Virus record (IMG/VR): IMGVR_UViG_3300046499_000422 | Span: 1 to 64,000 of that record | Length of the DNA stretch: 64,000 bases | Reading direction: 5' to 3' (one strand) | From: a virus | Notes under the pieces: generated by a model | What the model saw: the letters and a program-made list of their open reading frames with translations, nothing else | Told to the model about the DNA's origin: nothing | Database searches by the model: none | Program-made: the position numbers and the translations under genes | Shown here: positions 6,353-58,713 of the stretch, piece after piece | Layout: every line of letters begins with the position of its first letter | Position numbering within the stretch: position 1 is the first letter of the stretch

Positions 6353-6434
6353 CAGGTCACTCCGGTCTGTCCCGGTATCGCCGGGTTGGCGTGCCGGTCG
6401 GGTTGGCGGGTTTCGTCGTCTGGATGGGCGGAAG

Positions 6435-6647
6435 TCAGGCGGCAGGCACGGCCCGGAGGTGTCGGGCGGGTTTCTCGTCGAGTGCGGCTTCGAGGACTCG
6501 GCGGTGTTCGGCGGCTTCGAGGGCGGTGGTCTCGCGTCTCGGCCGGGCGGGGTGCTGCTCGGGGGCGGGTTCGGGGTCGCGGTGGTGTGGTCCGCCGAAC
6601 TGGCCGGTGGGGATGGTCTCGGCGAGGAGCCGTTCGAGCGGGGTCAC
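6435..6647 (-). CDS. 70-aa hypothetical protein
   Basis: GTG start at 6647 (GTGA overlap). Basic and helical, with LERLLAETIPTGQF at the start and ALEAAEHRRVLEAALDEK near the end. The 82-nt gap to the next gene holds no clear signal. The right copy is cut by the window end. Confidence 0.6.
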   Translation of the reverse strand: MTPLERLLAETIPTGQFGGPHHRDPEPAPEQHPARPRRETTALEAAEHRRVLEAALDEKPARHLRAVPAA

Positions 6648-7033: not shown

Positions 7034-7353
7034 GACGCCTGCCTCTCGATGGCGGGCCGGGTTTCGCGCTGTTCGGCGGCCTGGAGGAGGTCGAGGAGGG
7101 CGGGTCGTACGGGGCTGGTGTTGATGGCGCCGGAGGCGAGTAGGGCCGGCGGGATGAAGCCGGTCCAGTTCTCGGGGGTGGCGAACTTCATGGGCGGTTC
7201 GGTGAGCTTGGCGGCGAGGTCGGGGTGGGCCAGGACGGTGGCGCGGCGGCGGGTGTTGCGGGTGGCGGCGGCGCGGGTCTGGTCCTTGATGAAGGCGGTG
7301 AGGTCGTTCTGCTGGCGGAGCGCGCGGATGTCGTCTTCGCTGATGTCGGTCAT
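7030..7353 (-). CDS. 107-aa protein downstream of helicase loader
   Basis: ATG at 7353, coupled to the loader stop (ATGA). Helical and charged at the N-terminus (ISEDDIRALRQQNDLTAFIK), with a Pro-rich centre. The position suggests a replication accessory role, but nothing in the sequence proves it. Confidence 0.7.
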   Translation of the reverse strand: MTDISEDDIRALRQQNDLTAFIKDQTRAAATRNTRRRATVLAHPDLAAKLTEPPMKFATPENWTGFIPPALLASGAINTSPVRPALLDLLQAAEQRETRPAIERQAS

Positions 7354-8048
7354 GCGGCGGCCTGGCGGCGGCGGTCGTCGCCGGTGATGACGACGCGGTC
7401 GCACATTTCGATGAGGCGGGATGCGACGCGGTCTCCGACGCGGTCGGCGAGCTGTTTGGGCAGCACGTTGGAGGTCATGAGGGTGGGGAGCTGGTTCTCG
7501 TAGCGGTGGTTCACCAAGCGGAAGTTGATCTCTTCGGTCCACTCGCTGGTTTTGGCGGCGCCGAGGTCGTCGACGAGGAGCAGCGGGGCGTGGGCGTACT
7601 TGCGGAACTCGGTCTCGGAGTCGATGCCGGCGCGGGGGCGGAGGGCGGCGTACATGTCGGCGCTGGAGGTGGCGGTCCAGCGGAGGCTGATGCCGGTGGG
7701 GGCGAGGTGCCGCAGCGCGCCGTACGCCTGGTAGGTCTTCCCGACGCCGGTCGGCCCGAGGAGGAGGAGGGAGCGGCCGGTGGTGATGGCGGGGACGATG
7801 CGGCGGCCAGAGTGGGCGCGGGTGGTGGCGATGAGGTTGTCGGCCCAGTGCTGGACGTCGGGGTGGTCGGCGTTGGCTCGCTGGTAGATGAACGGGATGT
7901 CGTGGTTGGCGTGGTCGATTTCGCGGCGGGCGGTGGCGGGGCGGTCGTAGGGGTCGCCGGTGATGTCGTTGATCGCGTCGGGGGTGAGCTGGTGGGCGGT
8001 GAGGATGGCCTGCCAGTTGGTGAGGTCGACGGGGGTGAGGTGGTCCAT
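7350..8048 (-). CDS. DnaC-like helicase-loading ATPase
   Basis: 232 residues from the ATG at 8048 (AGGAG 6 nt upstream). Walker A GPTGVGKT at 98-105, Walker B LLLVDDLG around 156-163, a sensor-1 TSN at 192-194 and a terminal Arg-rich segment place it in the AAA+ DnaC/IstB group. Such proteins load the host replicative helicase onto an initiator-opened origin. It follows the initiator gene directly, the order expected for a phage theta-replication module that relies on host DnaB. No phage primase or polymerase was found. Confidence 0.88.
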   Translation of the reverse strand: MDHLTPVDLTNWQAILTAHQLTPDAINDITGDPYDRPATARREIDHANHDIPFIYQRANADHPDVQHWADNLIATTRAHSGRRIVPAITTGRSLLLLGPTGVGKTYQAYGALRHLAPTGISLRWTATSSADMYAALRPRAGIDSETEFRKYAHAPLLLVDDLGAAKTSEWTEEINFRLVNHRYENQLPTLMTSNVLPKQLADRVGDRVASRLIEMCDRVVITGDDRRRQAAA

Positions 8049-8056
8049 GGGTGCTC

Positions 8057-8923
8057 CTACAGGCTTTCGAAGTAGGCGGACTGGTCGGTGGGGTTGGTCC
8101 ACGGCTGGTAGTTGCCGCTGGCCACGGCCTTGAGCTGTGGCGCCGACCCGGCGGGGACTTCAGGCAGGCCGCCCCAGCCCGGAAGGAAGTAGCGGGCGGA
8201 GTAGGGCGGGTTCTTCGAGCTGCGCCAGACGCGCTCGGCGTGATCGACGAGGACGGGCACGCTGCGGGTGGCGACGAGGCCGGCGAGCTTCTTCCAGTCG
8301 GCTGCCTGGAGCTGCCAGCTGATGCGCATGCCGCGCAGGGTCATCTCGTCGATGAGCGGCTGGACGATCTTGAGTGCATCGACCTCTCCCGCTGCCGGCT
8401 GATCAACGGCGCGGGGGGGATGTGGTTGAACATCTACATCGTGGTTTAGCTGGTCTTGGTAGTGGGGTCCGGTTTCCGGACCCCTAGGGGTCTCGTTTTC
8501 GGACCCCTGGGGTCCGGTTTCCGGACCCCTAGCGTTTTCGCTACCGGTCCGGTTTCCGGACCCCTGCGCGGCGCTAGGGGTCTCGTTTCCGTACCCCTGC
8601 GATACGGCTAGAGGTCCGGTTTTCGGACCCCTAGAGCCACGCTCCGGGCGGACATAACCGACGGCGCCGGGCACCCGGTAGAGCGCCGAGCGGGTGCCGC
8701 GCGCCTCCTCCAGGAGCTCCAGCTCGCCGGACTTCACGAGTGCATCGACGGACTTGATCACCGAGGAGCGCGCGGCGTTGCTGAAGTGCGTCAGCTCGGC
8801 CGTGCTTGCCCGGACCGTGCAGTCCGGCCCCGTGATCCAGTTGGCGACGGCCAGCATGATGTGTCGGCCGGTCCCCTTGGACTGGGAGTGGTTCCACACC
8901 CAGTACATAGCGTCGATGCTCAC
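8057..8923 (-). CDS. Phage replication initiator with internal repeat tract
   Basis: 288 residues from the GTG at 8923. Residues 15-90 look like a winged-helix/DnaD-type initiator domain (HIMLAVANWITGPDCTVR.., then STAELTHFSNAARSSVIKS). A low-complexity middle (about 95-155) is built of repeated GPETGP and GSENETP-type units, encoded by DNA iterons. The C-terminal domain (about 185-260) resembles helicase-loader-binding regions of such proteins. Followed by the DnaC-like gene. By analogy with lambda O, it probably binds the repeats inside its own gene. Confidence 0.8.
   Translation of the reverse strand: MSIDAMYWVWNHSQSKGTGRHIMLAVANWITGPDCTVRASTAELTHFSNAARSSVIKSVDALVKSGELELLEEARGTRSALYRVPGAVGYVRPERGSRGPKTGPLAVSQGYGNETPSAAQGSGNRTGSENARGPETGPQGSENETPRGPETGPHYQDQLNHDVDVQPHPPRAVDQPAAGEVDALKIVQPLIDEMTLRGMRISWQLQAADWKKLAGLVATRSVPVLVDHAERVWRSSKNPPYSARYFLPGWGGLPEVPAGSAPQLKAVASGNYQPWTNPTDQSAYFESL
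8464..8632. repeat. Six palindromic iteron-like repeats: candidate replication origin
   Basis: Six ~22-bp units lie at 8464-8485, 8487-8508, 8509-8530, 8544-8565, 8577-8598 and 8611-8632. The best ones are arms GGGGTCCGG and CCGGACCCC around TTT, so each unit is itself a palindrome. Units 2 and 5 carry TCTCG in place of TCCGG. The array is inside the initiator coding sequence, the arrangement of the lambda origin. Both strands could fold; origin function is inferred. Confidence 0.75.
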
Positions 8924-9021
8924 GTGCTCTTCTCTCGCCGTCGTTGCTGGTCATCGCCTGTTTTCTGGCATGGCTCATGGCGGCTTCATCCGGGCGCGAC
9001 TTGTGCGCCGGGCGTGCTTCA

Positions 9022-9112
9022 ATCCTACCCCGGGGTGACCGGTCACCTGCCAGTCAAATGAAAGTCGATTACCGGTCAGGGGGTGAACGGTCACAGGGCG
9101 GTCAGCTACATT
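9022..9112. promoter_or_regulatory. Divergent promoter region with operator palindromes
   Basis: GGTGACCGGTCACC (9034-9047) is a perfect 14-bp palindrome. GGTGAACGGTCAC (9082-9094) and TACCGGTCA (about 9070-9078) are variant sites. A minus-strand TAGGAT (9027-9022) can serve as -10 for the initiator operon, and TACATT (9107-9112) as -10 for the plus-strand regulator. The palindromes overlap both promoters, as expected for control by the adjacent DNA-binding protein. Confidence 0.65.
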
Positions 9113-9118
9113 GGCTGT

Positions 9119-9313
9119 ATGACCACGAAGGGAACTACCGGCCGCGTCGTACGCATCGAGGACGACGTGTGGGCTGACTTCGAACAGGTCTGTAAGGAGA
9201 AGGGGCTCGCTCGAGCCACGGACATCCGCATGTACGTCGTTCGCGAGGTCACCGCGTGGCGCCGACAGCAGGCTGCTGACCGTCGCGCCGCCCGCAACAT
9301 CGCCGAGTCCTGA
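9119..9313 (+). CDS. Ribbon-helix-helix regulator
   Basis: 64 residues. RVVRIEDDVWADFEQVCKEKG supplies a beta strand and helix, then TDIRMYVVREVTAW a second helix, the layout of MetJ/Arc/CopG-type repressors. The ATG follows a TACATT -10 box by only 6 nt with no ribosome site, so the transcript is probably leaderless. It diverges from the replication operon and its promoter carries three operator-like sites, making it the likely autoregulated controller of replication genes. Confidence 0.8.
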   Translation: MTTKGTTGRVVRIEDDVWADFEQVCKEKGLARATDIRMYVVREVTAWRRQQAADRRAARNIAES

Positions 9314-9315
9314 CT

Positions 9316-9609
9316 TCATCGCCGCACCGCCCCCGCCGGGCAGACGTGGCAGATGACGTGCTCTCTGCCGCACACCGCGCCGGCCGGGCACCGCCACCGC
9401 AGGTCGACCACCCCGCCGTGCAGCCGGGCCACGCACCACAGCAACCGCCACGGGCCGGGTGTCCGTACATCCCCCGCGACGTACGGCGTCACCTCCGCCA
9501 TGACCGTGAGCGCCGCACGGTGGCCCACCGTCTGCCGGTAGCAGGGCAGCCCGCACCGGGCGCAGGCCGTAACGACCGCGCCCGGAACGGACTTGACGGG
9601 CCTGCTCAA
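9316..9609 (-). CDS. 97-aa zinc-finger-like protein
   Basis: The TTG at 9609 overlaps the upstream stop (TTGA). Three Cys pairs (CARCGLPC, RCPAGAVC, HVCPA) plus conserved W/H residues indicate a double zinc-binding domain typical of actinophage early proteins. It ends 2 nt after the convergent regulator gene. Function unknown. Confidence 0.7.
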   Translation of the reverse strand: MSRPVKSVPGAVVTACARCGLPCYRQTVGHRAALTVMAEVTPYVAGDVRTPGPWRLLWCVARLHGGVVDLRWRCPAGAVCGREHVICHVCPAGAVRR

Positions 9610-9809
9610 CGGCCAGCCCGGGGACTGACGCGTGCGCCGCCGCGGGGCCGCAGCTGGACGCGGGCCTGGATCAGCAGTGACCGCATCGCCCCGTACGACA
9701 TGTGATGCCGGGCCATGAGGCCACGGATGGAGTCGCCGGCGCGGTATTTGGCGGCGGCCTGCTTCTGGAGCCGGATGCGGGCGTCGCCGACGATGTGGGT
9801 GCGGGTCAT
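9606..9809 (-). CDS. 67-aa HTH protein
   Basis: ATG at 9809. The core AAAKYRAGDSIRGLMARHHM followed by SYGAMRSLLIQARVQLRPRGG is a recognisable small HTH often seen in Streptomyces genomes and mobile elements, where the second helix ends with LRPRGG. Likely a DNA-binding regulator. The stop of the preceding gene overlaps its start. Confidence 0.8.
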   Translation of the reverse strand: MTRTHIVGDARIRLQKQAAAKYRAGDSIRGLMARHHMSYGAMRSLLIQARVQLRPRGGARVSPRAGR

Positions 9810-10057
9810 CAGATGGCCTTCCAGGTGACGGTGCCCTGCTCGACGTGGCCGTGGGCGCGGCTGGTGCCGGTCTTCTCGCCGGTCTCGTCGTCCACGTCGG
9901 CGAGGTAGTTGGTCCAGAACGAGACGCGGGCGCGGGCGGCGCCGATGGCCCCGTACGGGCCCTCGTGGGTGGTGCGGGTCTTGCCGTCTCGGTCCGTCTT
10001 GGTGATGACGGCGCGGAACACGGTGGCGTCGGCCGCCATGCCGATCGAGCGGGCCAT
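9809..10057 (-). CDS. 82-aa hypothetical protein
   Basis: ATG at 10057. A small alpha/beta protein with FRAVITKTDRDGKTRTTHEG strands, an Ala-rich helix and an acidic turn (LADVDDETGEKTG). Coupled by TGATG-type overlap on both sides. Function unknown. Confidence 0.7.
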   Translation of the reverse strand: MARSIGMAADATVFRAVITKTDRDGKTRTTHEGPYGAIGAARARVSFWTNYLADVDDETGEKTGTSRAHGHVEQGTVTWKAI

Positions 10058-10497
10058 CAGGCACCTGCCTGCGGGCGGAGCCGGAGGATCGCGGCGATGG
10101 TGAGGTTGAGGTCGCGCAGGAGGCTGCTGCGGGTCTCGGGCGGCATGTCGGGGCTGTAGGCGACGTGGATGCGCATGCGGGGCCCGGCGGGGTCCTGAAT
10201 GTCGAGGTGTTCGGCGAACGGCTCCAGGCCGTCGGCGCCGAGCTGGACGGCCCACGTGCTGGTGTCGGCGGCCTTGCTGAGCAGGTCGTCGATGGCCCGC
10301 TGGGCGTCACCGAACGCGTCGCCGTCAAGGTCGTCCAGGTCGTGCCAGCAGGCGCGGGGCTCACCGGCGCGGCTCGGGATGACGGTGCCGGTCATCTGCT
10401 CGCCGATGCCCACGAAGTCGGCGTCCTCGGTGGTGTTCTTCAGCTGGCGGGCGGCTTCGTGGCGGAGGTCGGCGTCGGTGTACGGGAGGTCAGTCAC
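10057..10497 (-). CDS. 146-aa hypothetical protein
   Basis: GTG start at 10497 with a strong AAGGAG 6 nt upstream, suggesting a fresh translation start after the hairpin at 10520-10546. N-terminal MTDLPYTDADLRHEAARQL and an acidic centre (DLDDLDGDAFGDAQRAIDDLL), then a beta-rich half. The domain style recurs in Streptomyces phages; function unknown. Confidence 0.75.
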   Translation of the reverse strand: MTDLPYTDADLRHEAARQLKNTTEDADFVGIGEQMTGTVIPSRAGEPRACWHDLDDLDGDAFGDAQRAIDDLLSKAADTSTWAVQLGADGLEPFAEHLDIQDPAGPRMRIHVAYSPDMPPETRSSLLRDLNLTIAAILRLRPQAGA

Positions 10498-10519
10498 GGT
10501 GTTCTCCTTGGGGTTGGGT

Positions 10520-10546
10520 GCCGCGCCGGATTCCGCCCGGCGCGGC
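10520..10546 (-). terminator. Intra-operon hairpin
   Basis: Perfect 10-bp arms GCCGCGCCGG and CCGGCGCGGC with a 7-nt loop, between two early genes. No U run, so attenuation or transcript processing is more likely than full termination. Confidence 0.6.
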
Positions 10547-10553
10547 GCTCGCG

Positions 10554-10955
10554 TCAGACGGGGCGGTCGCCGAGGGGAAGTTCGTCCTGCTGCCCAGTGC
10601 GGGCGCTCTCGATTTCGATGCAGCGGCGGCAGACCTCCGGGTAGTGGATGGAGAGCGACCCGAGAGCCACCGCGCGCTGGACCTTGACGTGGGCGGCGAG
10701 GGTGCCGTGCGCGGCCATGTCGTCGATCGCCTCGGGGGTCATCAGCGGCTCATCGAGCGGGACATGGCAGCCACACGGGCAGCCGGGTTCTCCGCCGATA
10801 CCGAGCGCGGCCATGTGGGCCCAGCAGGCGTGGTGTTTGTGCCGCTGGCAGGCCAGGCAGATGGTGGTCGCGCCGGGGAAGGCGACGAGCTTGCCGGGGC
10901 GGAGCTCGGAGTCCTGGCCTCGGTAGCCGCGGGTGCGGCCTGCTCCTCGGGTCAC
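10554..10955 (-). CDS. 133-aa Cys/His-rich protein
   Basis: GTG start at 10955 (GTGA overlap). A CLACQRHKHHACWAHM segment followed by CPCGCH, and CRRC near residue 113, make at least two likely zinc sites. The protein ends in an acidic tail (QQDELPLGDRPV). Possibly nucleic-acid binding. Confidence 0.75.
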   Translation of the reverse strand: MTRGAGRTRGYRGQDSELRPGKLVAFPGATTICLACQRHKHHACWAHMAALGIGGEPGCPCGCHVPLDEPLMTPEAIDDMAAHGTLAAHVKVQRAVALGSLSIHYPEVCRRCIEIESARTGQQDELPLGDRPV

Positions 10956-40541: not shown

Positions 40542-42113
40542 TCACACCGCCATCAGCTTGCGGAGGGCGGTGGCCATCCACAGGCCCTTGAGTTTGTGGC
40601 CGATGTCGTTGGGGTGGATGACGTCCGCTGCGCCGTCGCCGAGGAACCGGTCCGCCGACCCGTATCCGGTGGTGGTGCCGACGCGGCCGGAGCCGGTCAT
40701 CCATGGGCCGATGGTGTCCACGAGCGTCCACGAGGCGTCACGGATCTCCCCGGTGAGCTGGCTGATGTAGGGGATGCCCTGCGCTTGGAACACCGTCCTC
40801 TGCCACGAGTCTTTGGTGACCGAGCCGGCGGCGGGTGTAGCGACGGGGCTGGCCGCGTACGGCGGCCAGTTCCCGGACGTGGAGTAGCAGCCGACCCCGA
40901 TGACCCACGCCCGGGGCAGGCCGGCCTTGATGGCTGCGATCGTTGAGGTGACGGCCGTCTGGAACGCGGTCTGGTCGGTCGTCGCGTCGTTGTAGCCGCC
41001 GTCAACGATCACGATGTCGAAACCCTTGGCGACGATGTCGAGCGCCACCCTGTTCGGGAACGTGGTGTACGGGCTGTTGACTGTGATGAACCCAGTGCCG
41101 CCTCTGCTCTGATTCCACCGGTTTTCCCAGCCGAAGGCGTCGCACATGAAGGGGAACCAGGTACCCGCCGAGCCGCCCGTGTTCACGGCCGAACCGCCGG
41201 AGGTGGAGTCGCCGAGCACCGCGATCTTCGGGCCGTGGAGGCCGATCTCCCAGAAGTCGAACGTGGGCCCTTGGAAGACCCCGCCGAACCGGGAGGTGGA
41301 GATCTCCATGCGGATCCGGCGCGGCGCGCTGCTGCCCAGGTTCACGGTCAGCAGGTGGCTGTTGCCGAGGGAGCCCTCGGTGGCGATCGACGACAGCGGG
41401 ATGGGTTTGTCCTGCACCGGGACGCCGTCGATGAAGATCCTGATCGCATCCGTGGTGGCCTGCGGGAGCAGCCGCACCTGGAAGATGTCGGCGTCGGTAC
41501 CCCACGCGACGTTGAGGACGCCAGCGGGGTTCGCTGCCGTGTGGGGGTCGATGCTCATGCTGACCACGAAGTTGACGCTGGACGAGGACAGGGCGATCTC
41601 GTCCGCCGCGTAGGTGTACGGGCCGGTCGTGTCGGCGCTGTTGCCGCTGCCGCTGAGCGCCACGGGGGACGGCGTGTACTTCACGAACCCGGCCGTGGGA
41701 GTTGAGGTCTGCGCCAACGTCAAGTTGCAGGTGCCACCCACCGCCGCCGAGGTGTACAGGGCCTTCTGCGTGATCAGCGGCGGCATGTGCCGGCGCCGCC
41801 ACGCCGTGTCCTGAACATCGACGTACGCCGTGGTCGGCAGCGCGGCGCCAGCCGCCGTGACCGCGCCACCCTGCGACACCGAGAGCTTGGTCGCGCCGGT
41901 GGCGTCCCGCAGGTCGAGGAGCGTTCCCGGGCCCTGGACCACAGCCGCCGGGGCGGACGCGTTCAGGGAGAGGGCCTGAAGGGCGGAGGCGCGTCCGCTG
42001 GTCGCGGCGAGCGTGACGGCCACGCCGTGGCAGTCCGTGGCGCCGCCGTCGGGCTGGTCCTGGACGGTGAGCCCGGAGGATCCCGGGTCACGGTTGCGGA
42101 TGGTCTCGCCCAT
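40542..42113 (-). CDS. Virion protein with SGNH/GDSL hydrolase domain
   Basis: 523 residues from the ATG at 42113 (GGAGG 5 nt upstream). An N-terminal beta domain (1-110) with capsid-fibre style repeats is followed by a lectin-like middle. From about residue 295 comes an SGNH hydrolase: block I VLGDSTSGG (Ser303), block III DGGYNDA (Asn375) and block V DVIHPNDIGH. Such enzymes deacetylate or de-esterify glycans. The position between capsid and connector genes suggests a head or neck fibre rather than a tail spike. Confidence 0.8.
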   Translation of the reverse strand: MGETIRNRDPGSSGLTVQDQPDGGATDCHGVAVTLAATSGRASALQALSLNASAPAAVVQGPGTLLDLRDATGATKLSVSQGGAVTAAGAALPTTAYVDVQDTAWRRRHMPPLITQKALYTSAAVGGTCNLTLAQTSTPTAGFVKYTPSPVALSGSGNSADTTGPYTYAADEIALSSSSVNFVVSMSIDPHTAANPAGVLNVAWGTDADIFQVRLLPQATTDAIRIFIDGVPVQDKPIPLSSIATEGSLGNSHLLTVNLGSSAPRRIRMEISTSRFGGVFQGPTFDFWEIGLHGPKIAVLGDSTSGGSAVNTGGSAGTWFPFMCDAFGWENRWNQSRGGTGFITVNSPYTTFPNRVALDIVAKGFDIVIVDGGYNDATTDQTAFQTAVTSTIAAIKAGLPRAWVIGVGCYSTSGNWPPYAASPVATPAAGSVTKDSWQRTVFQAQGIPYISQLTGEIRDASWTLVDTIGPWMTGSGRVGTTTGYGSADRFLGDGAADVIHPNDIGHKLKGLWMATALRKLMAV

Positions 42114-47768: not shown

Positions 47769-49109
47769 TTAGAGCCAGCGCACGTTCGGCCGGCCGCCGA
47801 GGTCCCGCTGCGCCACCATGTACCGCATCGCATCCATCGAGTGGTCGTTCTCCTTCACCGGCTCTTCCTTCAAGCCGCCCGCGCCCGGCTTCACCGCCCA
47901 CACGTAGCCGGTGACTTCCTCCGTCGCGCACGTCGGCAACGACGCCTCCTCCAGCGCCGGATCCCGCGCCACCAGAGCGCCCCGCACGACGAATAGCCGT
48001 GGCCGTCCGTCCTCCTGGACCTTCAAGCGCGACTGCACATGCTGGATACCGTCGCTGACCGTCTTCTTCGCCGCGACCGTCGACAGCCCGAGATGCCGCT
48101 CCAGCGTCGCCCGGTCCTCCGCGTCGTGGTCGCAGATCACCGCCCGAGGCGGCGGCCCCTTCCACTGGCCCGACGGGTACTTCGCCACGGCGAGAATGTC
48201 CTTCGCGTGGTCCTCGACCAGGCGCCGGGTGCGGTAGATCTCGTTGACCAGGTACAGGCGGCCGTCGCCGTCCTCACGCCAGTCCTGCCAGACGAACGGG
48301 TTGGTGAACCCGAAGTCCACCGTCCACCAGCGCGTCCATATACCGGGTACCTGGAACGGGTCGATGAGGTGGATCCCGTCGTCCCAGCCCTCATAGATCA
48401 AGCCCTCGGCGGCGGCCCACTTGCCGTCCTTGAGCCGGAGCCGGCGCACGCCGGTGAGTCGTCCGAGCTTGTCGAAGTAGTCCACGCCTGCCGGGGTGGG
48501 GGTGCCATCGGCGTTCATGTACGCGGGGTTGTCCTGGTGGCGGGAGACCAGCATGCGGGCTGCGCCCTGGTCGCAGCGTTGTTTGATCCAGTGCGTGGGG
48601 TGGGCGGGGTTGCAGGCGGCGATCTGTTGCTGCCAGGAGAGGACGCCGTTGCGGAGGCGGGTGGCGATGGACTCCCAGTCCTTCACCGTGAGTTCGGTGG
48701 CCTCGTCGGCGAAGACGAGGTCGTACTCCGCGCTCATGATTTTTTCGGGCTTGTCCATGCCTCCGACGACGATGACGGAGCCGTTGCTGTACCGGTAGCA
48801 GGGTGCCTCTCGGGGGCTGCCGCCGAACCAGCGGACGATTCCACGAGCGATCACGTCGGCGGCCACCTTCTTCTCGTACGTCACGAGGGTGGTGGAGCCG
48901 AGACTGACGGCGGTCTTGCGGACGATGAGGCAGCGGATGCCAGGGTTGTGGAGCGCGGCGAGGTGCACGCGGAACAGACACGACAAGGACTTGCCCGTGC
49001 CGGCGGGACCGGCGATGACCAACTCGGAGTCGCGCGACTTGAAGACCTCCAACGCGGCGCCGCGCGGCTCGTACCGGACGATGGCGTCCTGGTCGGCCGC
49101 TGTGGTCAC
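47769..49109 (-). CDS. terL: Terminase large subunit
   Basis: 446 residues from the GTG at 49109 (GTGA overlap with the small subunit). Walker A GPAGTGKS at 34-41, Walker B LVFADEATEL near residue 130, and a nuclease domain with VDFGFTNPFVWQDW.. and CDHDAEDRATLERH Asp residues. PBSX-type terminase; it packages DNA through the adjacent portal. Confidence 0.93.
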   Translation of the reverse strand: MTTAADQDAIVRYEPRGAALEVFKSRDSELVIAGPAGTGKSLSCLFRVHLAALHNPGIRCLIVRKTAVSLGSTTLVTYEKKVAADVIARGIVRWFGGSPREAPCYRYSNGSVIVVGGMDKPEKIMSAEYDLVFADEATELTVKDWESIATRLRNGVLSWQQQIAACNPAHPTHWIKQRCDQGAARMLVSRHQDNPAYMNADGTPTPAGVDYFDKLGRLTGVRRLRLKDGKWAAAEGLIYEGWDDGIHLIDPFQVPGIWTRWWTVDFGFTNPFVWQDWREDGDGRLYLVNEIYRTRRLVEDHAKDILAVAKYPSGQWKGPPPRAVICDHDAEDRATLERHLGLSTVAAKKTVSDGIQHVQSRLKVQEDGRPRLFVVRGALVARDPALEEASLPTCATEEVTGYVWAVKPGAGGLKEEPVKENDHSMDAMRYMVAQRDLGGRPNVRWL

Positions 49110-51754: not shown

Positions 51755-52360
51755 TCAGGTGTACGCGGGCAGGATCCGCTCCACCCGGGCAGCCAGCCTC
51801 GCCGCACCCGCCCGGTCCGGGCTACCCGTCGCCGCGTGAGCCCGGAGCAGGTTCATCAACCGCTCCGGGTCGGCCACGGTCACCGCGCCCACGGTCACCT
51901 TCCCGCCGGCCACCGGGGCGGAGTGCATCACGATCATCGGATAGGCCGGGACGCGGAGCAGGGCGCTCGCACGGTCCGCCTGCCACTTCACGCCGGTGAT
52001 GGCCTTGTGTCGGTCGGCGCAGCCGTGGACGAGCCGGCCGTCCGAGGCGACGTTGAGCGTGCCCCGGTGCCGGGACCAGAGCTTCGTGTCCAGGGCGATA
52101 ACGGACAGGCCGTCCGGCGGAACGAGTACGTGATCGACCTGACCGCCGGGGATGGCCCGGTCGTGCAGCACGTGCCAGCCCTCCCGCACGAGCGGGGCGA
52201 GGAGTTCGGCGGTCCGCCGTTCACCCTCGGCGCCGGCGTCGTAGTTGGCGGCGGCCTGCGGTTCGTCGAGGAGGCCGAGGGCGACGAGGAGGCGGCGCCA
52301 CCACGGTTGGGCGCGGCGCAGCTGGCGGGCGCGGACGGTAGCGGATCGGCCGGCGGTCAC
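51755..52360 (-). CDS. NERD-domain (nuclease-related) protein
   Basis: 201 residues from the GTG at 52360 (GTGA overlap). GAEGERRTAELLAPLVREGW, HVLHDRAIPGGQVDHVLVPP and LSVIALDTKLWSRHRG give the E...D..xxDxK-type order of NERD nucleases. They are frequent on Streptomyces plasmids beside transfer genes. A DNA-processing role is likely but unproved. Confidence 0.8.
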   Translation of the reverse strand: MTAGRSATVRARQLRRAQPWWRRLLVALGLLDEPQAAANYDAGAEGERRTAELLAPLVREGWHVLHDRAIPGGQVDHVLVPPDGLSVIALDTKLWSRHRGTLNVASDGRLVHGCADRHKAITGVKWQADRASALLRVPAYPMIVMHSAPVAGGKVTVGAVTVADPERLMNLLRAHAATGSPDRAGAARLAARVERILPAYT

Positions 52361-52476
52361 TTGGTGCCGTCCTTGGCCGTGGCCGGCGGCTGCGGCGGGC
52401 GCTTCGCCCGGTCGGACAGCTCCTGCTGCTTGCGGCGCTGCTCCTCGGTCCAGCCACCCGGGGTGGATGTGGGCAT
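52357..52476 (-). CDS. 39-aa hydrophilic peptide
   Basis: ATG at 52476 with GGAG 8 nt upstream. MPTSTPGGWTEEQRRKQQEL with a Lys/Pro tail. Stop overlaps the NERD start. Probably translated; function unknown. Confidence 0.55.
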   Translation of the reverse strand: MPTSTPGGWTEEQRRKQQELSDRAKRPPQPPATAKDGTK

Positions 52477-52509
52477 GATGATGTCTCCGTCCTGCGCGTT
52501 GGGATGGGG

Positions 52510-52552
52510 CCCGGGGCGGTCGTCGGCCGGCAAGCAAGGCGACCGCCCCGGG
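52510..52552 (-). terminator. Terminator of the translocase unit
   Basis: Perfect 13-bp arms CCCGGGGCGGTCG and CGACCGCCCCGGG with a 17-nt loop. Confidence 0.75.
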
Positions 52553-52570
52553 AGTTACGTTTCGTGTTCG

Positions 52571-52657
52571 TACCGGGTAGTGGGTACTGGGCGCCGGGCC
52601 CGGAAAGGGCCCTGTGGGGCGGTCTACTGGGTACTGGGGTGGTCCCCACTACCCAGT
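52571..52657. repeat. TACTGGG repeat cluster downstream of the translocase gene
   Basis: TACTGGG occurs at 52585-52591, 52625-52631 and 52632-52638; CCCAGT lies inverted at 52652-52657, and related GGGTAGTGGG is at 52575-52584. The cluster sits just beyond the FtsK-like gene. In Streptomyces plasmids, short direct repeats near traB form the clt site bound by TraB; this could be a counterpart, but the known 8-bp motifs are different. Confidence 0.55.
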
Positions 52658-52679
52658 GACTGGTAGCTGACGGTGACGG

Positions 52680-54710
52680 TCACGTGTGGTCGGGGTGGAC
52701 GTACGCGGAGTGCGGGCCGTTGTCGCGGTAGATCAGGGCGCCGCGGTCTACGGCCGGGCGGAGGCCGGAGCGGACTGCCTTGCGGTCGCGGCCGACGGCC
52801 TCGGCGACAGCGCCGGGTTTCATCCCGGCGGGGCCTGCGGCGTGGATGGAGCGGATGGCGTCGGGGAGCCAGTCGGGCCCGCTGCGGCTGGGTGTGGGTT
52901 CGTCGGTGGTGCCGTAGTGCTGGTCGATCTCGTCGAGGAGTTCCTCGGCGAGCGCGTCGGCGTCGGGGCCGGGCTTCTTCTTGGCGAACAGGCGCTCCCA
53001 TCCGGGCACCCACTGTCCGGCCGAGTAGGAGGCTTCGATTTCACGGATGTGAGCCTCGGTGATCCAGGGCGCGGGCTGGCCGGCGTCGAACCATCCGGGC
53101 CCGTCCGGCAGCTGGCGCAGCATTGCGTTCGCCTGAGCCTGCGGCAGGTAGGGGACCTGCACGACGGTCGGTGTCGCACCGAGTGCCCCGTACACGCCGC
53201 GGCCCTTGACCGTGCCGTCCCAGGTCGGTTTCTTGATGCGGCCGTAGGTGGTGACCCACTTCTCCGCCGAGCAGTCGCCGATGACGAGGCGCCCGGAGAA
53301 CAGGTCGCGGGCGTCGCTGCCGCCGAACAGGTCGAGGGCCATCTGGTGGGCGCCGACGGCGAGCCGGTGGTCGAGGGCGCGGCCTTGCATGAGGCAGACG
53401 TGCATCCAGAACGGGATGACGTTGGGGGTCTTCTGCTGGCCGGGGCCCTTCCACCAGGCTTTCACCGCTCCGGCGAACGAGCCGTATTCGTCGATGAGGA
53501 GGAGGCGCGGGGGGATGTGGCTGGTGTCCTGTCCGGCCTGCTGCATGAGGGCGACGGCGGTGGCGGAGGCGAGGAACTCGGCCAGGGCGGCCACGGCTTC
53601 ACGGAGGGTCGTGGCGATGCGGACGCCGGACACGGTCCCGGAGGGGCGGGTGGGGTCGCCTGCGATGCCGTCGGGGTGCTCGGCGTCCCGTTCGGTGTAC
53701 GACATGCGCTTGAGGTCGATGACCGTGGCCAGGGCGCCGTGCTGCCGGGCGTGGACCAGCGGCAGCGTCAGCGCGGTGGTTTTGCCGGAGCCGGAGCCGC
53801 CGACGTAGGCGGCGTGGGGGTTGTCGGTGAGGGTGCGGAGGTAGTGGTCGACGCCGTTGGCTTCGGTTCCGATGTGCATGACGTACGGGTCGTTGGAGGG
53901 TTTCCAGGTGACGGCGGCCGGGGGCTGCGCCTCGGGCGCGGCGGTGGCCGGCGCGGGCTCGGCGGGCGGGGTGGCCGGCGTTGTCGGGTCCGGTGCTGCC
54001 GTGTCTGCCGGCTCCGGGGTGGTGGTCGCGGGCGCCGGGTGGAGGGCGGCCGGGTCGATGCCGGGGCGTAGCGCGGGCGGGGCGGGGTGGAGGGTGGTGG
54101 GCCAGCGGCCCTGCACCCACGCGGTCACCGCGGTGAGGCCGGTCGCGGCGAGGCCGAGGTCGAGGAGGGCGCCGGTCTGCCAGGAGGCGACTGCCGCGCA
54201 GGACACGACGAGGGCGGTACGGACACGGCGGGTGCGGACGCGCCGCTTACGGGCGGCATCCACGGAGCCGGGGCCGGGCGGGACGGTGATGAACGCGGAG
54301 GCGGCGATCTGCTGCGCCTCGGCCTTGAGCTTCCATGCCTCGTGGTGGCCGTCGTCGCCCTTGGCCTGCTCGACGGCCTTGGCCTGCTCGTTGAGCGTGT
54401 CGGCGTGCGCGGTCTGCCTGGCCTTCCACGTGTCGTACTGGTGGTTGAGGTGGGCGGCGGCGCAGTAGGCGGTGTCGAGGTCGCGCCCGGTCCACCAGGC
54501 GGCGGCCTGTCGGGCGGTGTGGGTGGCGCCGTGGCGGGTGACGGCGAGTTCCCGCAGGCCGGTCGCGCGGGCCAGAGCGAGGGCGATCTGTCGGCGGCTG
54601 GTCTCGCGGCGCGGCGTGTCATCGGCCGGGCGCGGCCCGGGGCTGTCCTCATCGAGGAGCTCGCCGTCGAGGACGGGGCCTTCGTACGGGACGGGTTCGG
54701 TACTGGTCAC
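52680..54710 (-). CDS. FtsK/TraB-like DNA translocase
   Basis: 676 residues from the GTG at 54710 (GGGAGG 6 nt upstream). Two membrane helices at about 165-200, a Pro/Ala-rich linker (205-265), Walker A GGSGSGKT at 304-311, Walker B LLLIDEYG at 403-410, and a C-terminal winged helix (about 615-660, GPAGMKPGAVAEAVGRDRKA). This is the plan of TraB, which pumps double-stranded DNA between hyphae, and of FtsK. It could serve segregation instead. Neighbouring SpdB-like genes favour a transfer-type role. Confidence 0.88.
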   Translation of the reverse strand: MTSTEPVPYEGPVLDGELLDEDSPGPRPADDTPRRETSRRQIALALARATGLRELAVTRHGATHTARQAAAWWTGRDLDTAYCAAAHLNHQYDTWKARQTAHADTLNEQAKAVEQAKGDDGHHEAWKLKAEAQQIAASAFITVPPGPGSVDAARKRRVRTRRVRTALVVSCAAVASWQTGALLDLGLAATGLTAVTAWVQGRWPTTLHPAPPALRPGIDPAALHPAPATTTPEPADTAAPDPTTPATPPAEPAPATAAPEAQPPAAVTWKPSNDPYVMHIGTEANGVDHYLRTLTDNPHAAYVGGSGSGKTTALTLPLVHARQHGALATVIDLKRMSYTERDAEHPDGIAGDPTRPSGTVSGVRIATTLREAVAALAEFLASATAVALMQQAGQDTSHIPPRLLLIDEYGSFAGAVKAWWKGPGQQKTPNVIPFWMHVCLMQGRALDHRLAVGAHQMALDLFGGSDARDLFSGRLVIGDCSAEKWVTTYGRIKKPTWDGTVKGRGVYGALGATPTVVQVPYLPQAQANAMLRQLPDGPGWFDAGQPAPWITEAHIREIEASYSAGQWVPGWERLFAKKKPGPDADALAEELLDEIDQHYGTTDEPTPSRSGPDWLPDAIRSIHAAGPAGMKPGAVAEAVGRDRKAVRSGLRPAVDRGALIYRDNGPHSAYVHPDHT

Positions 54711-54721
54711 GGTGGGCCTCC

Positions 54722-55207
54722 CTAGAACCAGCGGCCGATGGCGGCGGTGCCGAGGTTGTTCACCAGCGGGACGAGGGCGACGGCGCCGAGGAACGGACCG
54801 AGGGTGATCCCTGCGGCCCCGGCCCAGCCCATCTCGCGCTTCAGCCGGTCCTTGGCGCTCTTGACGGCCACGGCCAGGACGGCGACGGCGCCGAGCATGA
54901 TGACCGCCCCGAACGGGTTGAGGACACCGAAGTCGGCCGAGCGGGTCACGGCGACGTGCTGCGCACCGGTGCCGTGGATGAGGAGGTAGTCGCCGGCGCC
55001 GCCGAGGAGGTTCCGGGCCCAGGTCACGACGGTGCCGACGAGGCCGCCCGCGCAGGCCCCGGCGAGGGCGAATGCGGATGCGCTGCCGAGGAACGGGAGG
55101 AGGTCTTTCCAGTTCTTGCTCTTGCCGCCTTTGATCCACCAGTGGGCGATGCGGACCACGGTGATGAGGAATCCGACGGCGAACATGCCGAGGGTCACGA
55201 CTTTCAC
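54722..55207 (-). CDS. Membrane protein with four helices (transfer block)
   Basis: 161 residues from the GTG at 55207 (GTGA). Helices at VVTLGMFAVGFLITVVRIAH, LGSASAFALAGACAGGLVGT, FGAVIMLGAVAVLAVAV and ITLGPFLGAVALVPLV. Basic loops. Resembles spread-type (Spd) membrane proteins of Streptomyces plasmids in size and location, not by a clear motif. Confidence 0.75.
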   Translation of the reverse strand: MKVVTLGMFAVGFLITVVRIAHWWIKGGKSKNWKDLLPFLGSASAFALAGACAGGLVGTVVTWARNLLGGAGDYLLIHGTGAQHVAVTRSADFGVLNPFGAVIMLGAVAVLAVAVKSAKDRLKREMGWAGAAGITLGPFLGAVALVPLVNNLGTAAIGRWF

Positions 55208-55632
55208 AGCTGGGCTCCGGTGAGGGTGTGGACGATGGCGGTGAGGGCGGGGATGAACATGAGGGCGCCACAGGCGGCGGAGAAGACGGCGACGCGGACG
55301 GTCCACGCCCAGGCGGCGGTGACGGCCTGCGGGGCGCGGGCGTGGTGCGCGGCGCCGTGGGCCTTGACCGCCAGCCACGCCCCGCCGACACCCGCGGCGG
55401 CGTACTGCCCCGGGTCCTGCCAGGCGGCGGCGTAGGTGATGGCGCACCACACGGCGGGCGGGGCGGGGCCGAGGGGGATGAGGAGTGCGGCGGCGAGGGC
55501 GGTGCCGTTGTAGGCGGGGCGCAGCCACCGGAAGTCGAAGCCGCGTTCCCGGGCGGGCGGCTGGGGCGCAGTCGGGGGTGCGGGGATCAGCGGCGGGTAG
55601 TTCGGGGGCTGCGGTACCAGGTGCTGGGTCAT
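55204..55632 (-). CDS. Membrane protein (transfer block)
   Basis: 142 residues from the ATG at 55632. A Pro-rich cytoplasmic N-terminus (PQPPNYPPLIPAPPTAPQPP) precedes membrane segments at NGTALAAALLIPLGPAPPAV, VWCAITYAAAW and VRVAVFSAACGALMFIPALT. Coupled to neighbours by 4-nt overlaps. Confidence 0.72.
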   Translation of the reverse strand: MTQHLVPQPPNYPPLIPAPPTAPQPPARERGFDFRWLRPAYNGTALAAALLIPLGPAPPAVWCAITYAAAWQDPGQYAAAGVGGAWLAVKAHGAAHHARAPQAVTAAWAWTVRVAVFSAACGALMFIPALTAIVHTLTGAQL

Positions 55633-55838
55633 GAGTGATGCCTTCCTGCGGGGTGGACGCCGAACTGGAGGAGGAGGGCCTGGACGCGAAGCTCGTCCGG
55701 GCCGGGAGGCGCGGCGGCCAGCGGTGGGGCCGTATCGGCCGGCCATGTGCCGTGGGGCGGGAGCAGGGTGCGGGTCTCGGTGGCGGGTGAGGCGTGGCGG
55801 CGTCGGCGCCAGGGCCAGCGGCGGCGGCGCCGGGTCAC
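55629..55838 (-). CDS. 69-aa basic/proline-rich protein
   Basis: GTG at 55838 within the stop of the DUF2637-like gene. N-terminal RRRRRWPWRRRR tract, then Pro/Ala-rich and a helix (ELRVQALLLQFGVH). Might bind DNA or lipid by charge. Function unknown. Confidence 0.6.
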   Translation of the reverse strand: MTRRRRRWPWRRRRHASPATETRTLLPPHGTWPADTAPPLAAAPPGPDELRVQALLLQFGVHPAGRHHS

Positions 55839-56812
55839 AGGTAGCCGCCGGTGTCGTATCCGTGGTCCGGGCCGTCGGTGCGCTTCTTCGCCTGCTCGCG
55901 ATGGAGGACGGTGTAGACGTACTTGGTGCTGACCTCGATGCCCTGCTCGGTCAGAAGGCGGGCGATTTCCGCCGGCGCTGCGTCCGGCGGGAGGGTCAGC
56001 GACGCGGCAAGGATGGCGTTCTTCTTGTTGACGCCCTGAGGAGTCTTCATTTCGTTCTTCATGCCAGTGAGCTGCGTCTTCATCGAGTCGTCAGCCGGGA
56101 TCACGTCGGCTTCATCCGGCGTCACGCGCTGCGCCGGGCGCCCGGTGGCGTTGCGGGTGACCGTGTATGCGGGGGCCTGCGAGGCGGCCCGTGAAGCCGC
56201 CTGGAGAGCGGCGTACGCGGCGAGCTCTTCCCGGGTGCGGGCTTCACGGCGCTGGAGGTGCGCGAGGACCTCGCGGGCGCCGACTTCCTGCGCGCGCTGG
56301 TCCACCCACGCCTGGGTCTTCTTGTCGAGGCGCAGATCGTGGTGGTGGATGACGATGGTCCACAGGCCCTTGGCGAGCAGTGAGATGAAGGCGCCGATGA
56401 TGCCGGTGGCGAGCGAGTCGGTGAGCTTGCCGTGGTAGGTGACGGCGGTCATGGCGATGAGGAGCGCGATGTGGCCGCCCCAGCGGGGCAGTGCGGCCTT
56501 TTGGCGGTTGTGGCGGGCCATCCACTCGACGGCCATGCAGGTGATCCACGTGAGGTCGAAGACCGCGGCGGCGCAGTAGGCGGCGAACGCCGGCGCGGTC
56601 CGGTTGAGGAGGTCGCCGATGCTGGTCGTGGTCCAGGCGACGGACGCGATGATGGCGATGACCGTGAAGGTGTTGACGACGTGCGAGGTGACCAGGTCCC
56701 AGTCCCGAGGGGGTACGGGGATGGTGATGTCGTATTCGTCGGGGACGGGGTAGGTGGTGCCTTCGATGGTGTGGGGGATGGGGCGGCTGCGGGTTTCGCG
56801 GCGGGTCTTCAC
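55835..56812 (-). CDS. DUF2637/SpdB-like membrane protein
   Basis: 325 residues from the GTG at 56812 (GGAG 6 nt upstream). Four membrane helices between about 50 and 160: FTVIAIIASVAWTTTSIGDL, AFAAYCAAAVFDLTWITCMA, GGHIALLIAMTAVTYHG and GIIGAFISLLAKGLWTIVIH. A helical Arg/Glu region and a C-terminal HTH-like end (AEIARLLTEQGIEVSTKYVY) follow. The family is common on Streptomyces conjugative elements, where spread proteins help plasmids move along hyphae. Confidence 0.82.
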   Translation of the reverse strand: MKTRRETRSRPIPHTIEGTTYPVPDEYDITIPVPPRDWDLVTSHVVNTFTVIAIIASVAWTTTSIGDLLNRTAPAFAAYCAAAVFDLTWITCMAVEWMARHNRQKAALPRWGGHIALLIAMTAVTYHGKLTDSLATGIIGAFISLLAKGLWTIVIHHHDLRLDKKTQAWVDQRAQEVGAREVLAHLQRREARTREELAAYAALQAASRAASQAPAYTVTRNATGRPAQRVTPDEADVIPADDSMKTQLTGMKNEMKTPQGVNKKNAILAASLTLPPDAAPAEIARLLTEQGIEVSTKYVYTVLHREQAKKRTDGPDHGYDTGGYL

Positions 56813-56918
56813 CGGGGTCTCCTGGGGCGGGCTGGTGGGTGTGGGGGCTGGTGGATTTCCGCGCCGCAGGCGGTTGGGGTCCTGCGGCGTGGGCTACCGG
56901 TCAGCTCTCGGGTTGGGT

Positions 56919-56949
56919 GGCCGCACCCCGCGGGTGGTGGGGTGCGGCC
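56919..56949 (-). terminator. Hairpin upstream of the DUF2637-like gene
   Basis: Perfect 11-bp arms GGCCGCACCCC and GGGGTGCGGCC with a 9-nt loop, in the 189-bp gap between microprotein genes and the membrane-protein gene. Confidence 0.7.
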
Positions 56950-57001
56950 GTGCCGGGCGTCGCGCCGTGGGGGAACGCCACGAGACCCGGCTGTCTGGGG
57001 G

Positions 57002-57106
57002 TCAGTGGCAGTCGGGGCAGTCGGGGCCGGTGCACTGGTCGGCGTGGCGGCAGGCGTCGTTGCAGTAGGGGTGGCCGCCGGGTGCGCCGCAGAGAATGCA
57101 CTCCAT
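57002..57106 (-). CDS. 34-aa Cys/His microprotein
   Basis: ATG at 57106 overlapping the upstream stop (TGATG). CILCGAPGGHPYCNDACRHA then CTGPDCPDCH: seven Cys and several His in 34 residues, a pair of tiny zinc sites. Too small for domain assignment. Confidence 0.6.
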   Translation of the reverse strand: MECILCGAPGGHPYCNDACRHADQCTGPDCPDCH

Positions 57107-57243
57107 CAGGACGCCTTCCCGGTGCCTCGGCAGGTGCTGCAGGTCTGCCAGTTCTGACGCGTGACGCCGTCGCTGGAGGTGTCGACGGTTTTGCCGCCGG
57201 TGCCGGCGCAGGTGGTGCAGGTCTGGGGCTGGGCGTAGGTCAC
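57106..57243 (-). CDS. 45-aa DnaJ-zinc-finger-like microprotein
   Basis: GTG at 57243 (GTGA). Two CxxCxGxG units, CTTCAGTGGK and CSTCRGTGKA, 23 residues apart, copy the zinc-binding modules of DnaJ in isolation. It may be a stand-alone protein-binding or RNA-binding knuckle. Confidence 0.7.
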   Translation of the reverse strand: MTYAQPQTCTTCAGTGGKTVDTSSDGVTRQNWQTCSTCRGTGKAS

Positions 57244-57587
57244 AGGGCACCGCCGGCGCGGAGGGTGGCGTGGGCGGAGGCGGCGCGGAGGCGGAGGCGC
57301 CAGGCCCGCGTGTAGCCGAGCGGGCGACGGCGGTGGAGGAGCTGCTGGGCGGTGGAGAGGGTGGCCTTCGCGGCGTGGATGGTGCCGGCGGGGATGCGGC
57401 GGACGGGGTGGCCGCAGTGGCGGAGGATCGCCTCGGCGGCGGCCGGGTCGCCGCACCGGACGTGGGGGGTGGTGTAGGTGCAGGCGGTGCAGGTGTAGTG
57501 CATGCCGGTGGTGTCGGCGTGGAGGTGGGGGGCGTGCGTCGGCACGGGGCTGTGCTGGCGGATGGGCTGATCGGTACGATCGGTCAC
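57240..57587 (-). CDS. 115-aa Cys/His protein heading the transfer block
   Basis: The GTG at 57587 is preferred: AGGAG lies 6 nt before it, while it touches the ATG at 57593 directly. HYTCTACTYTTPHVRC and later ILRHCGHPVRRIPAG give a zinc group. The C-terminus is basic and helical. First gene after the operator palindrome at 57702. Confidence 0.7.
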   Translation of the reverse strand: MTDRTDQPIRQHSPVPTHAPHLHADTTGMHYTCTACTYTTPHVRCGDPAAAEAILRHCGHPVRRIPAGTIHAAKATLSTAQQLLHRRRPLGYTRAWRLRLRAASAHATLRAGGAL

Positions 57588-57746: not shown

Positions 57747-58089
57747 GGGAGCGGCGTTGGATGACGAGGAGGTGCAGCCGGAAGTGGAAGCGGTACGCGA
57801 AGCGCTCCGAGCGCTGGAGCAGATCCCCGACCGACTGGACCGGGCCAAGGCCCTTGCCGTCCTGCTAGGTGAGTGGCCGGATCATCACGCTTTCCTGCGG
57901 GAGGAGCGGCAGCGAATCGTGCAAGAGATGCGCGCCGAGAAGATGACGTATCGGCAGATCGGCGATGCATTGGGGATGCACTTCACTCGGGTCCGTCAGA
58001 TCGAGGCTGGGCAGCGTGGAGCGAAGAACCGCCCGGCGAAGAAGCCGCCGACCGACGAGGAGTAGCCGGGCACGACGACGGCCCGCCCC
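57747..58089. repeat. Direct repeat arm A, right copy (partner 1-343)
   Basis: Counterpart of 1-343 at an offset of 57746. Differences are few and synonymous in the gene. Confidence 0.95.
57757..58065 (+). CDS. Small HTH protein, sigma-70 region-4-like (right copy)
   Basis: Encodes the same 102 residues as the left copy; only synonymous positions differ. Here the upstream DNA is visible: GAAGGGAG precedes the TTG, and the ATG at 57723 reads a 13-codon peptide ending in TGA that overlaps the start, possibly a coupled leader. The operator palindrome lies 38 bp upstream. Confidence 0.85.
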   Translation: MDDEEVQPEVEAVREALRALEQIPDRLDRAKALAVLLGEWPDHHAFLREERQRIVQEMRAEKMTYRQIGDALGMHFTRVRQIEAGQRGAKNRPAKKPPTDEE

Positions 58090-58109
58090 GGGCTTAGGGG
58101 CGGGCCGTC
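58077..58109. terminator. Terminator after HTH gene (right copy)
   Basis: Same 13-bp arms as 331-363, one change in the loop. Followed by TTCTTCTT. Confidence 0.85.
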
Positions 58110-58207
58110 CTGTTCTTCTTCGCCAACCAGCGTACGCCCCGCCTTGTCGGTCACGGACGGGTTACACCCGATGCGCCCGACCCGTCCGGTACACCACACT
58201 CCGGGGC

Positions 58208-58429
58208 ATGTCTGACACCCGCACACCCCGCCTGTCCCGCCGCGCCAAGTACATGATCGCCATCGTCGCGCTCATCATCTGGACCGCCCTGGCCAACACT
58301 TGGACGTCCCGGGGCTGTGACCTGGTCCCGTCGTACGGGTACGTGGTTGGGCACTGGACGCCGGCCGCGAACCAGGGCTGTGAGTCGGAGCCGGGCGGGG
58401 CGCAGTACACGGACCACTACGACGGCTGA
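58208..58429 (+). CDS. 73-aa membrane protein, variable cassette of right copy
   Basis: ATG at 58208 with CGGGG before it. SRRAKYMIAIVALIIWTALA is one membrane helix with a basic N-side; the outside part has two Cys (RGCDLVPSY.. NQGCESEP). It is absent from the left copy, where a lipoprotein gene occupies the place in the opposite direction. Overlaps the end of the convergent 98-aa gene by 13 bp. Small single-span proteins can block superinfection; that is inference here. Confidence 0.75.
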   Translation: MSDTRTPRLSRRAKYMIAIVALIIWTALANTWTSRGCDLVPSYGYVVGHWTPAANQGCESEPGGAQYTDHYDG

Positions 58430-58713
58430 GCGGCGGGCGGACAGTGCGGGATGGCTCCCTGCGCGCTTTCGTTCCACACGGTGCGGCCGAGCGGGCCGCG
58501 CGCGCTGACGTGGTAGTCGCCATACTCGCCGTGCCCGCGCCGGTGCCAAGCGCGGAGCACGCAGGCGAGGGTGCCGTCCGTGTGCTCATTGTCGAGGGTC
58601 GCGGTGCAGGGCGAGATGTCGGCGTGGGCGGTAGCGATGTGGTCGTCGGTCTGATCGGGCGACTGGGGCTGGTCGCAGTGGGGGCACACCTCGGAAGGGA
58701 AGTTGTCAGGCAC
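58417..58713 (-). CDS. 98-aa C2H2-like protein, variable cassette of right copy
   Basis: GTG at 58713 with GAGGAG 7 nt upstream, the same translation start as the unrelated 50-aa gene in the left copy. VCPHCDQPQSPDQTDDHIAT.. AH forms a CxxC..H..H finger; the remainder has HRRGHGEYGDYHVSARGPLG. Probably nucleic-acid binding. Confidence 0.75.
   Translation of the reverse strand: MPDNFPSEVCPHCDQPQSPDQTDDHIATAHADISPCTATLDNEHTDGTLACVLRAWHRRGHGEYGDYHVSARGPLGRTVWNESAQGAIPHCPPAAQPS

Follow-up and report, generated by a model that had tools for sequence, protein, structure and literature searches.

Results

A membrane-protein and translocase cassette in a siphovirus genome

IMG/VR virus record IMGVR_UViG_3300046499_000422 is 68,059 bp long, and we analysed its positions 1-64000 (64,000 nucleotides, hereafter the window). 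From the letters alone, an original prediction had placed at 51755-57587 a DNA-transfer unit of the kind found on Streptomyces plasmids, inside a complete siphovirus genome. The results showed that genes for a SpdB-like protein, two more membrane proteins (TM1 and TM2), a P-loop translocase and a NERD-domain protein were all present there on the minus strand, as predicted. In minus-strand order, the cassette comprised the SpdB-like gene, a small open reading frame (ORF), TM2, TM1, the translocase, a noncoding gap and the NERD gene. Start and stop codons overlapped at three junctions (SpdB/small ORF, small ORF/TM2 and TM2/TM1), so the cassette reads as one operon, and the proposed coupling of its genes held.

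The SpdB-like membrane protein (55835-56812, minus strand, 325 aa) had about 3-4 transmembrane (TM) segments by hydropathy and a C-terminal helix-turn-helix-like tail, and matched phrog_35187 (E=2e-56); like other SpdB proteins, it is a multi-TM protein encoded with tra genes. It had been described as DUF2637/SpdB-like. The SpdB part was borne out by phrog_35187 and by 31-37% identity to the SpdB-like proteins of plasmids pFSYMDG01 and pSITFR-21c, but Pfam DUF2637 (PF10935) gave no match in the window protein up to E=1, whereas plasmid counterparts at the same gene position did match. TM1 (54722-55207, minus strand) is a plasmid-type four-helix membrane protein (phrog_16379, E=1e-10), and TM2 (55204-55632, minus strand) has two helices by hydropathy, with relatives at the same position in five viral loci. 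The small ORF (55631-55838, minus strand, about 68 aa) corresponded to the N-terminal portion of what some relatives have as one undivided gene, and together with TM2 it aligned end to end with a single 180-aa ORF (L013:6924-7466). The NERD-domain protein (51755-52360, minus strand, 201 aa; PF08378, E=1e-10; phrog_38277) gave the only Pfam match within the module; for the SpdB-like protein and the translocase, the assignment rests on family links, motifs and gene order. PHROG families 35187, 16379 and 38277 are all listed as function unknown. NERD directly followed SpdB in four viral contigs (L034, L054, L056 and L062), stood beside it in pSITFR-21c and was present in pZL12 (L083:23512-24096); it looks like a regular partner of SpdB.

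The element that carries the cassette is a temperate siphovirus of 57.48 kb. Bases 1225-10579 of the record were identical to 58705-68059; the record therefore overlaps itself on a circular map of 57,480 bp. As the original prediction had stated, the head, tail and lysis genes were complete: the window encoded TerL, portal (E=2e-54), capsid (E=2e-49), a GH25 lysin (E=3e-26), a DnaC-like loader, exonuclease VIII and a tyrosine integrase (Phage_integrase, E=4e-22), in keeping with the tyrosine or serine integrase of actinomycete integrative and conjugative elements. TerL (47769-49109, minus strand; phrog_2, E=1e-33; PF04466) was closest, among isolated phages, to that of Thermobifida phage P1312 (61.7%). 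The packaging genes adjoin the cassette, whose membrane, translocase and NERD genes lie 3-8 kb from terL on the same strand. Complete virion genes and a tra-like locus thus stand in one element, as in plasmid-phages of the pZL12 type.

The translocase has intact ATPase motifs and plasmid relatives

The translocase (52680-54710, minus strand, 676 aa) consists of an N-terminal domain (residues 1-235), a P-loop ATPase (259-576) and a C-terminal winged-helix-like domain (605-676). Its frame was open over the full length and its ATPase motifs were intact, with a Walker A motif (GGSGSGKT) and a Walker-B-like motif (LLLIDEYG) that are both kept in the A1 family. Hydropathy gave one hydrophobic N-terminal segment (165-183), at threshold. 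The motor had been called FtsK/TraB-like. The P-loop ATPase and the Walker motifs agreed with this name, but the family assignment did not: PF01580 (FtsK_SpoIIIE) had no match at E<=0.001 in the record, nor in a Pfam scan of the translocase up to E=1, while the same model matched in 10 of 14 control genomes; since this search also missed the FtsK-like gene of pZL12, absence by PF01580 is not proof.

By tblastn, the translocase matched 27 plasmids and no phage, and the best match of every domain lay on plasmids. The ATPase domain was 66% identical to that of pFSYMDG01 (a Protofrankia plasmid) and of a Frankia contig. Linear Streptomyces plasmids encode more distant relatives (33-38%), coupling proteins whose genes stand beside VirB4-like (AAA_10, E=6e-21) and peptidoglycan-hydrolase (NlpC/P60 or M23) genes. 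Profile comparison with coupling proteins of type IV secretion systems (T4SS) gave a probability of 100%. The N-terminus (4-214) was 36% identical to a translocase of a Streptomyces nojiriensis plasmid, and the C-terminal domain was 45% identical to the C-terminus of the FtsK-like translocase of plasmid NBC_01309. No close relative of the whole translocase was found in phages or IMG/VR, and PDB sequence searches gave no meaningful match. On this sequence evidence, the motor is a T4SS-coupling-protein-like ATPase and not a canonical TraB. VirB4 (PF12846) and TrwC relaxase (PF08751), the only relaxase family searched, had no match in the phage, as expected for a single-motor double-stranded DNA (dsDNA) system.

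Phage-type and plasmid-type genes are joined in the cassette

Phylogenetic trees gave different placements for TM1 and SpdB. The window TM1 was nested within a plasmid clade (support 99/94 and 100/99) and was 49-54% identical to TM1 of three Streptomyces plasmids. The window SpdB fell among phage SpdBs, in a plasmid-free clade of 39 (support 87/92), but its branch is long and no starred set includes it. Because TM1 nests in plasmid TM1s while SpdB groups with phage SpdBs, the cassette appears to be a phage-plasmid hybrid, and the most fitting view of the operon is a TM1-translocase block of plasmid origin attached to a SpdB of phage origin.

Most actinophage relatives of the cassette lack a motor

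A search with the SpdB profile found 53 IMG/VR loci, and phrog_2 TerL was present in 33 of the 50 tested records of these loci. TM1 followed SpdB in 29 of the 53, and in 46 of the 53 the fourth gene (gene 4) encoded membrane segments and a C-terminal domain without an ATPase. AlphaFold (25 rows) predicted two long hydrophobic helices and a winged helix for motor-less gene 4 (predicted local distance difference test score, pLDDT, about 85-90); Foldseek returned mostly winged-helix proteins with no match below E=0.49, which is weak support. The gene-4 profile matched the C-terminus of the NBC_01298 plasmid translocase (E=1e-12), which ties motor-less gene 4 to the transfer module, and also matched single proteins of two linear plasmids. 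Profile comparison detected no homology of gene 4 to the window translocase, the link running only via the NBC_01298 translocase.

No A1-type motor was found in the 50 records of SpdB loci, although the same profile did match pFSYMDG01 and Frankia. FtsK-like motors stood beside SpdB at two loci (L063 and L066). The L066 contig also carried TerL, portal, capsid and tape measure genes and so adds another phage in which a unit with a motor lies upstream of terL. Motor counts from the PF01580-based scan alone are weakened by its miss of pZL12, and the gene-4 family was built for that reason. Among isolated phages, VWB and Kromp carried the motor-less gene; in VWB, TM1 and gene 4 are gp25-26, ahead of terL. 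The SpdB-TM cassette is thus common in actinophages and nearly always motor-less, so a survey of relatives, as the original prediction had suggested, did find the module beside virion genes, but mostly without its translocase.

Further loci were observed. A 115-kb IMG/VR contig carries, at L063:10001-15090, an SpdB whose sister is that of pFSYMDG01; next in order come a transglycosylase/NlpC-P60 membrane protein and the FtsK-like protein. The linear Streptomyces plasmids pSM17C and pSSFR2 (L003:2393-5084 and L009:3306-6061) carry motor-less gene 4, eight CTACC repeats, a T4SS-like cluster and a DUF2637 gene. Finally, pSITFR-21c (L079), a 103.5-kb circular element annotated as a plasmid, contains a TurkishDelight-like SpdB-NERD-TM-winged helix-turn-helix (wHTH) block and may be a phage-plasmid.

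Repeat clusters lie just beyond the motor gene or gene 4

Downstream of the translocase stop codon, the noncoding gap contained a candidate clt-like cis site (52571-52666) made of direct and inverted TASTGGG / CCCASTA repeats with an STACC core. The cluster held 6 cores in 145 bp, and no other place in the genome reached 6. Allowing 2 mismatches, TASTGGGTASTGGG had 6 matches against 0.53 expected (0 of 100 shuffles), and 4 of the 6 lay at this gap.

Relatives carried repeats at the corresponding place. Beyond gene 4 of the 51 motor-less loci, several of which are near relatives and not independent events, CTACC occurred 152 times in 250-bp stretches against 16.6 expected. Within 100 bp of the gene-4 stop it was counted 111 times, against a background of about 4 per 100 bp (about 25-fold), and 70 neighbouring pairs were 10-12 bp apart. 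The flanks differed by group (ATCTACC, AACTACC or CCTACCG), the repeat was absent in 18 of the 51 loci, and phage VWB had TCTCCC, not CTACC, at the same place. Among motor-bearing plasmids, exact copies of TGATCGGC stood just 3' of the translocase gene, six in NBC_01485 (L077) and four in BB1-1-1 (L076), and the arrays of these plasmids consist of 8-bp, clt-like units. The mapped clt of pWTY27 comprises 16 bp of traA and the adjacent 159 bp, with 7-bp repeats (PMC3583192). The window cluster sits where clt lies in plasmids, and its motif and place suggest a clt-like site.

Comparison with plasmids and plasmid-phages

Four Streptomyces plasmids (BB1-1-1, NBC_01485, NBC_01298 and S. nojiriensis NBC_00471) shared the gene order DUF2637-TM-TM1-translocase with the window, which excludes chance, and three of them had GntR-type regulators nearby. 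The TM1 identity noted above for three plasmids, the N-terminal translocase match of S. nojiriensis and the repeat arrays of two plasmids all fall within this group. In contrast, their motors belong to an FtsK/TraB-side lineage, their DUF2637 protein had no blast match to phage SpdB, and no virion genes were noted in the stretches examined. The plasmid pFSYMDG01 and the Frankia nodulisporulans contig share the ATPase domain, and the former also has the SpdB-like protein (31%), but the other translocase parts, N- and C-terminal, differ, no TM1 was found and no virion genes are annotated. The claim of a Streptomyces-plasmid transfer gene set therefore held for the homologous gene order, the plasmid-type TM1 and translocase and the clt-like cluster at the clt position, but the set is not a canonical TraB unit.

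pZL12 (phage ZL12) likewise combines virion genes with an FtsK-like gene that has two neighbours, one of them multi-TM (pZL12.71-73), and a NERD gene (38%). It differs in its translocase, which is of the NBC_01309/pADI95-16c type (25%), and in being a 90-kb replicon with ParAB. We infer that pZL12.71-73 are the published traA-traC; pZL12.71 and pZL12.72 matched the same plasmid proteins as P1312 ORF63 and ORF64. We also considered pZL12.18c-20c as the tra locus and rejected it for lack of a P-loop; pZL12.71-73 fit instead. P1312 (ORF62-64) and the Hiyaa-type Streptomyces phages, whose FtsK-like translocases are annotated, are isolated phages with an FtsK/TraB-type translocase, but their modules are of another lineage (33% to the NBC_01309 translocase), and the regions examined showed neither a TM1 nor a gene-4 family member. 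The motor-less SpdB-TM1-wHTH cassette (VWB gp25-26 and about 46 IMG/VR loci; phrog_35187, 16379 and 5650) shares with the window the SpdB and TM1 families, the place upstream of terL and the repeat array 3' of gene 4, and differs in that gene 4 has no ATPase.

Other features of the phage genome

No ParA/ParB or Rep was found among the window proteins scanned. At 8464-8634, iteron-like clustered repeats with CCGGACCCCTAGGGGTCCGG-type palindromes lie beside the DnaC-like loader gene and are a possible replication origin. The record ends overlap yet differ: 1-371 is 97% identical to 57747-58118 and 372-1224 is unrelated to 58119-58704, before the 9355 bp that are identical; they represent either two phage variants or an assembly chimera. 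A probable tail-region protein (40542-42113) contains a GDSL lipase/acylhydrolase domain, which suggests an envelope-degrading tail enzyme.

Discussion

In Streptomyces plasmids, TraB binds 8-bp clt repeats through its C-terminal winged helix and pumps dsDNA, and intramycelial spread requires Spd proteins (PMC12857230, PMC4170104, PMC3583192). In our judgement, at little better than even chances, the cassette is a dsDNA transfer and spreading unit of this type in a temperate actinophage. This reading is drawn from the gene order shared with plasmids, the plasmid-type TM1 and translocase domains, the intact ATPase motifs, the repeat cluster 3' of the stop and the lack of a VirB4 or TrwC match. 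The genes, their operon layout and hybrid origin, the intact motor and the site-like repeats at a conserved position can be read from the DNA itself. How the cassette would bind and translocate DNA, form a pore and serve the phage is inferred as follows. With its C-terminal winged helix, the translocase would bind the repeat cluster that lies next to its gene on the 3' side, and it would form an ATP-driven pump that its N-terminal region anchors in the membrane. SpdB, TM1 and TM2 may form or guide the membrane passage, through which circular phage DNA, excised or replicating, would be driven across septa or hyphal contacts. Besides travelling in virions, the element could in this way pass as naked DNA through a mycelium and from one mycelium to another.

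Several results weigh against dsDNA transfer. The ATPase lies outside PF01580 and comes closest to T4SS coupling proteins, a class that ordinarily depends on a relaxase and a channel. The AlphaFold model of the translocase (2 sequences) had a pLDDT of 34 and was not used, and it did not resolve the C-terminal fold. The window cluster is degenerate beside the CTACC arrays of relatives, and general and exact-repeat statistics at the site were weak (6 of 400 random segments reached it; p=0.11), so the case for it rests on the motif seen in relatives and on its position. Most phage relatives keep the cassette motor-less, and its ordinary phage job may thus not be DNA pumping.

Because these relatives have no motor, the strongest rival is a membrane-anchoring, partition-like device in which gene 4, with or without a motor, would bind the adjoining array, tether the phage DNA, or that of the prophage, to membrane or septum and aid maintenance in multinucleate hyphae, the motor being an add-on here. 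The predominance of motor-less gene 4 after SpdB, many copies with a phased array and none with an A1-type motor, and its predicted two TM helices and winged helix would suit tethering. Helically phased repeats are typical of centromere-like sites. The authors of P1312 interpreted its FtsK as serving segregation (PMC4569894). However, the window phage has an intact plasmid-type motor and a plasmid-type TM1, no ParA was seen among the scanned proteins and the integrase already gives stable inheritance, and we consider tethering to have a real but rather low probability. No clear grouping of the translocase with segregation-only phage proteins, which the original prediction had named as evidence against transfer, was observed.

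The coupling-protein likeness of the ATPase, together with the gene neighbourhoods of its linear-plasmid relatives, would also fit a translocase that feeds phage DNA into the conjugation channel of a co-resident linear plasmid. We regard this as unlikely, since the nearest homologues (66%) are on a 12-kb plasmid without recognised T4SS genes, the phage has no TrwC match, and both the N-terminal domain of the translocase and its neighbours match the Spd/Tra type of module. A role in the lytic cycle or superinfection exclusion, with the membrane proteins and nuclease-like NERD blocking or helping DNA entry, is suggested by the adjoining packaging genes, the nuclease-related domain and the several small membrane proteins; it is distinctly improbable given that order and homology match plasmid transfer modules, a clt-like site is present and exclusion needs no motor. 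That the motor is a functionless passenger or recombination relic seems very improbable: the mosaic origin and the lack of close copies among phages and IMG/VR viruses would allow it, but the full-length frame, intact motifs, operon overlaps and retained site-like cluster speak against it.

Taken together, the original transfer interpretation is partly supported. A virus with a Tra cassette, a combination to which it had drawn attention, proved to be of a known kind, with precedents in pZL12, P1312 and a second IMG/VR phage, G050 (PMC3583192, PMC4170104). Plasmid-phages that conjugate as episomes and release virions have been reported, with pFP4 as cited in PMC4170104, and passages of PMC3583192 report conjugation of pZL12. 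What is new is the hybrid composition, a motor that resembles coupling proteins, and a motor-less cassette accompanied by a phased array; of this last we found no description in the literature searched, in which one paper contained both DUF2637 and phage. A wider and more tentative proposal, possible but well short of likely, is that a pared-down transfer cassette, without a motor but with a phased clt-like array of its own, is general among actinophages, and that prophages or replicating phage DNA use it to colonise mycelia, drawing on a motor of the host or of co-resident elements. This phage and a few others would have regained a plasmid motor and become self-sufficient, and virion-free spread by contact would be a normal part of actinophage life.

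Single plasmid-phages have already been credited with two routes of spread; here the parts are readable, as a phage SpdB with a plasmid TM1 and motor. About 46 viral loci, and the classic phage VWB as well, have the motor-less cassette with an array phased at 10-12 bp, and it represents a conserved DNA-membrane system, as yet uncharacterised, in actinophages. These findings raise the testable question of phage DNA movement between hyphae when virions cannot form. If the cassette moves DNA, the phage would have two routes of spread, virions and hyphal contact, and its prophage would behave like a conjugative plasmid in colonies.

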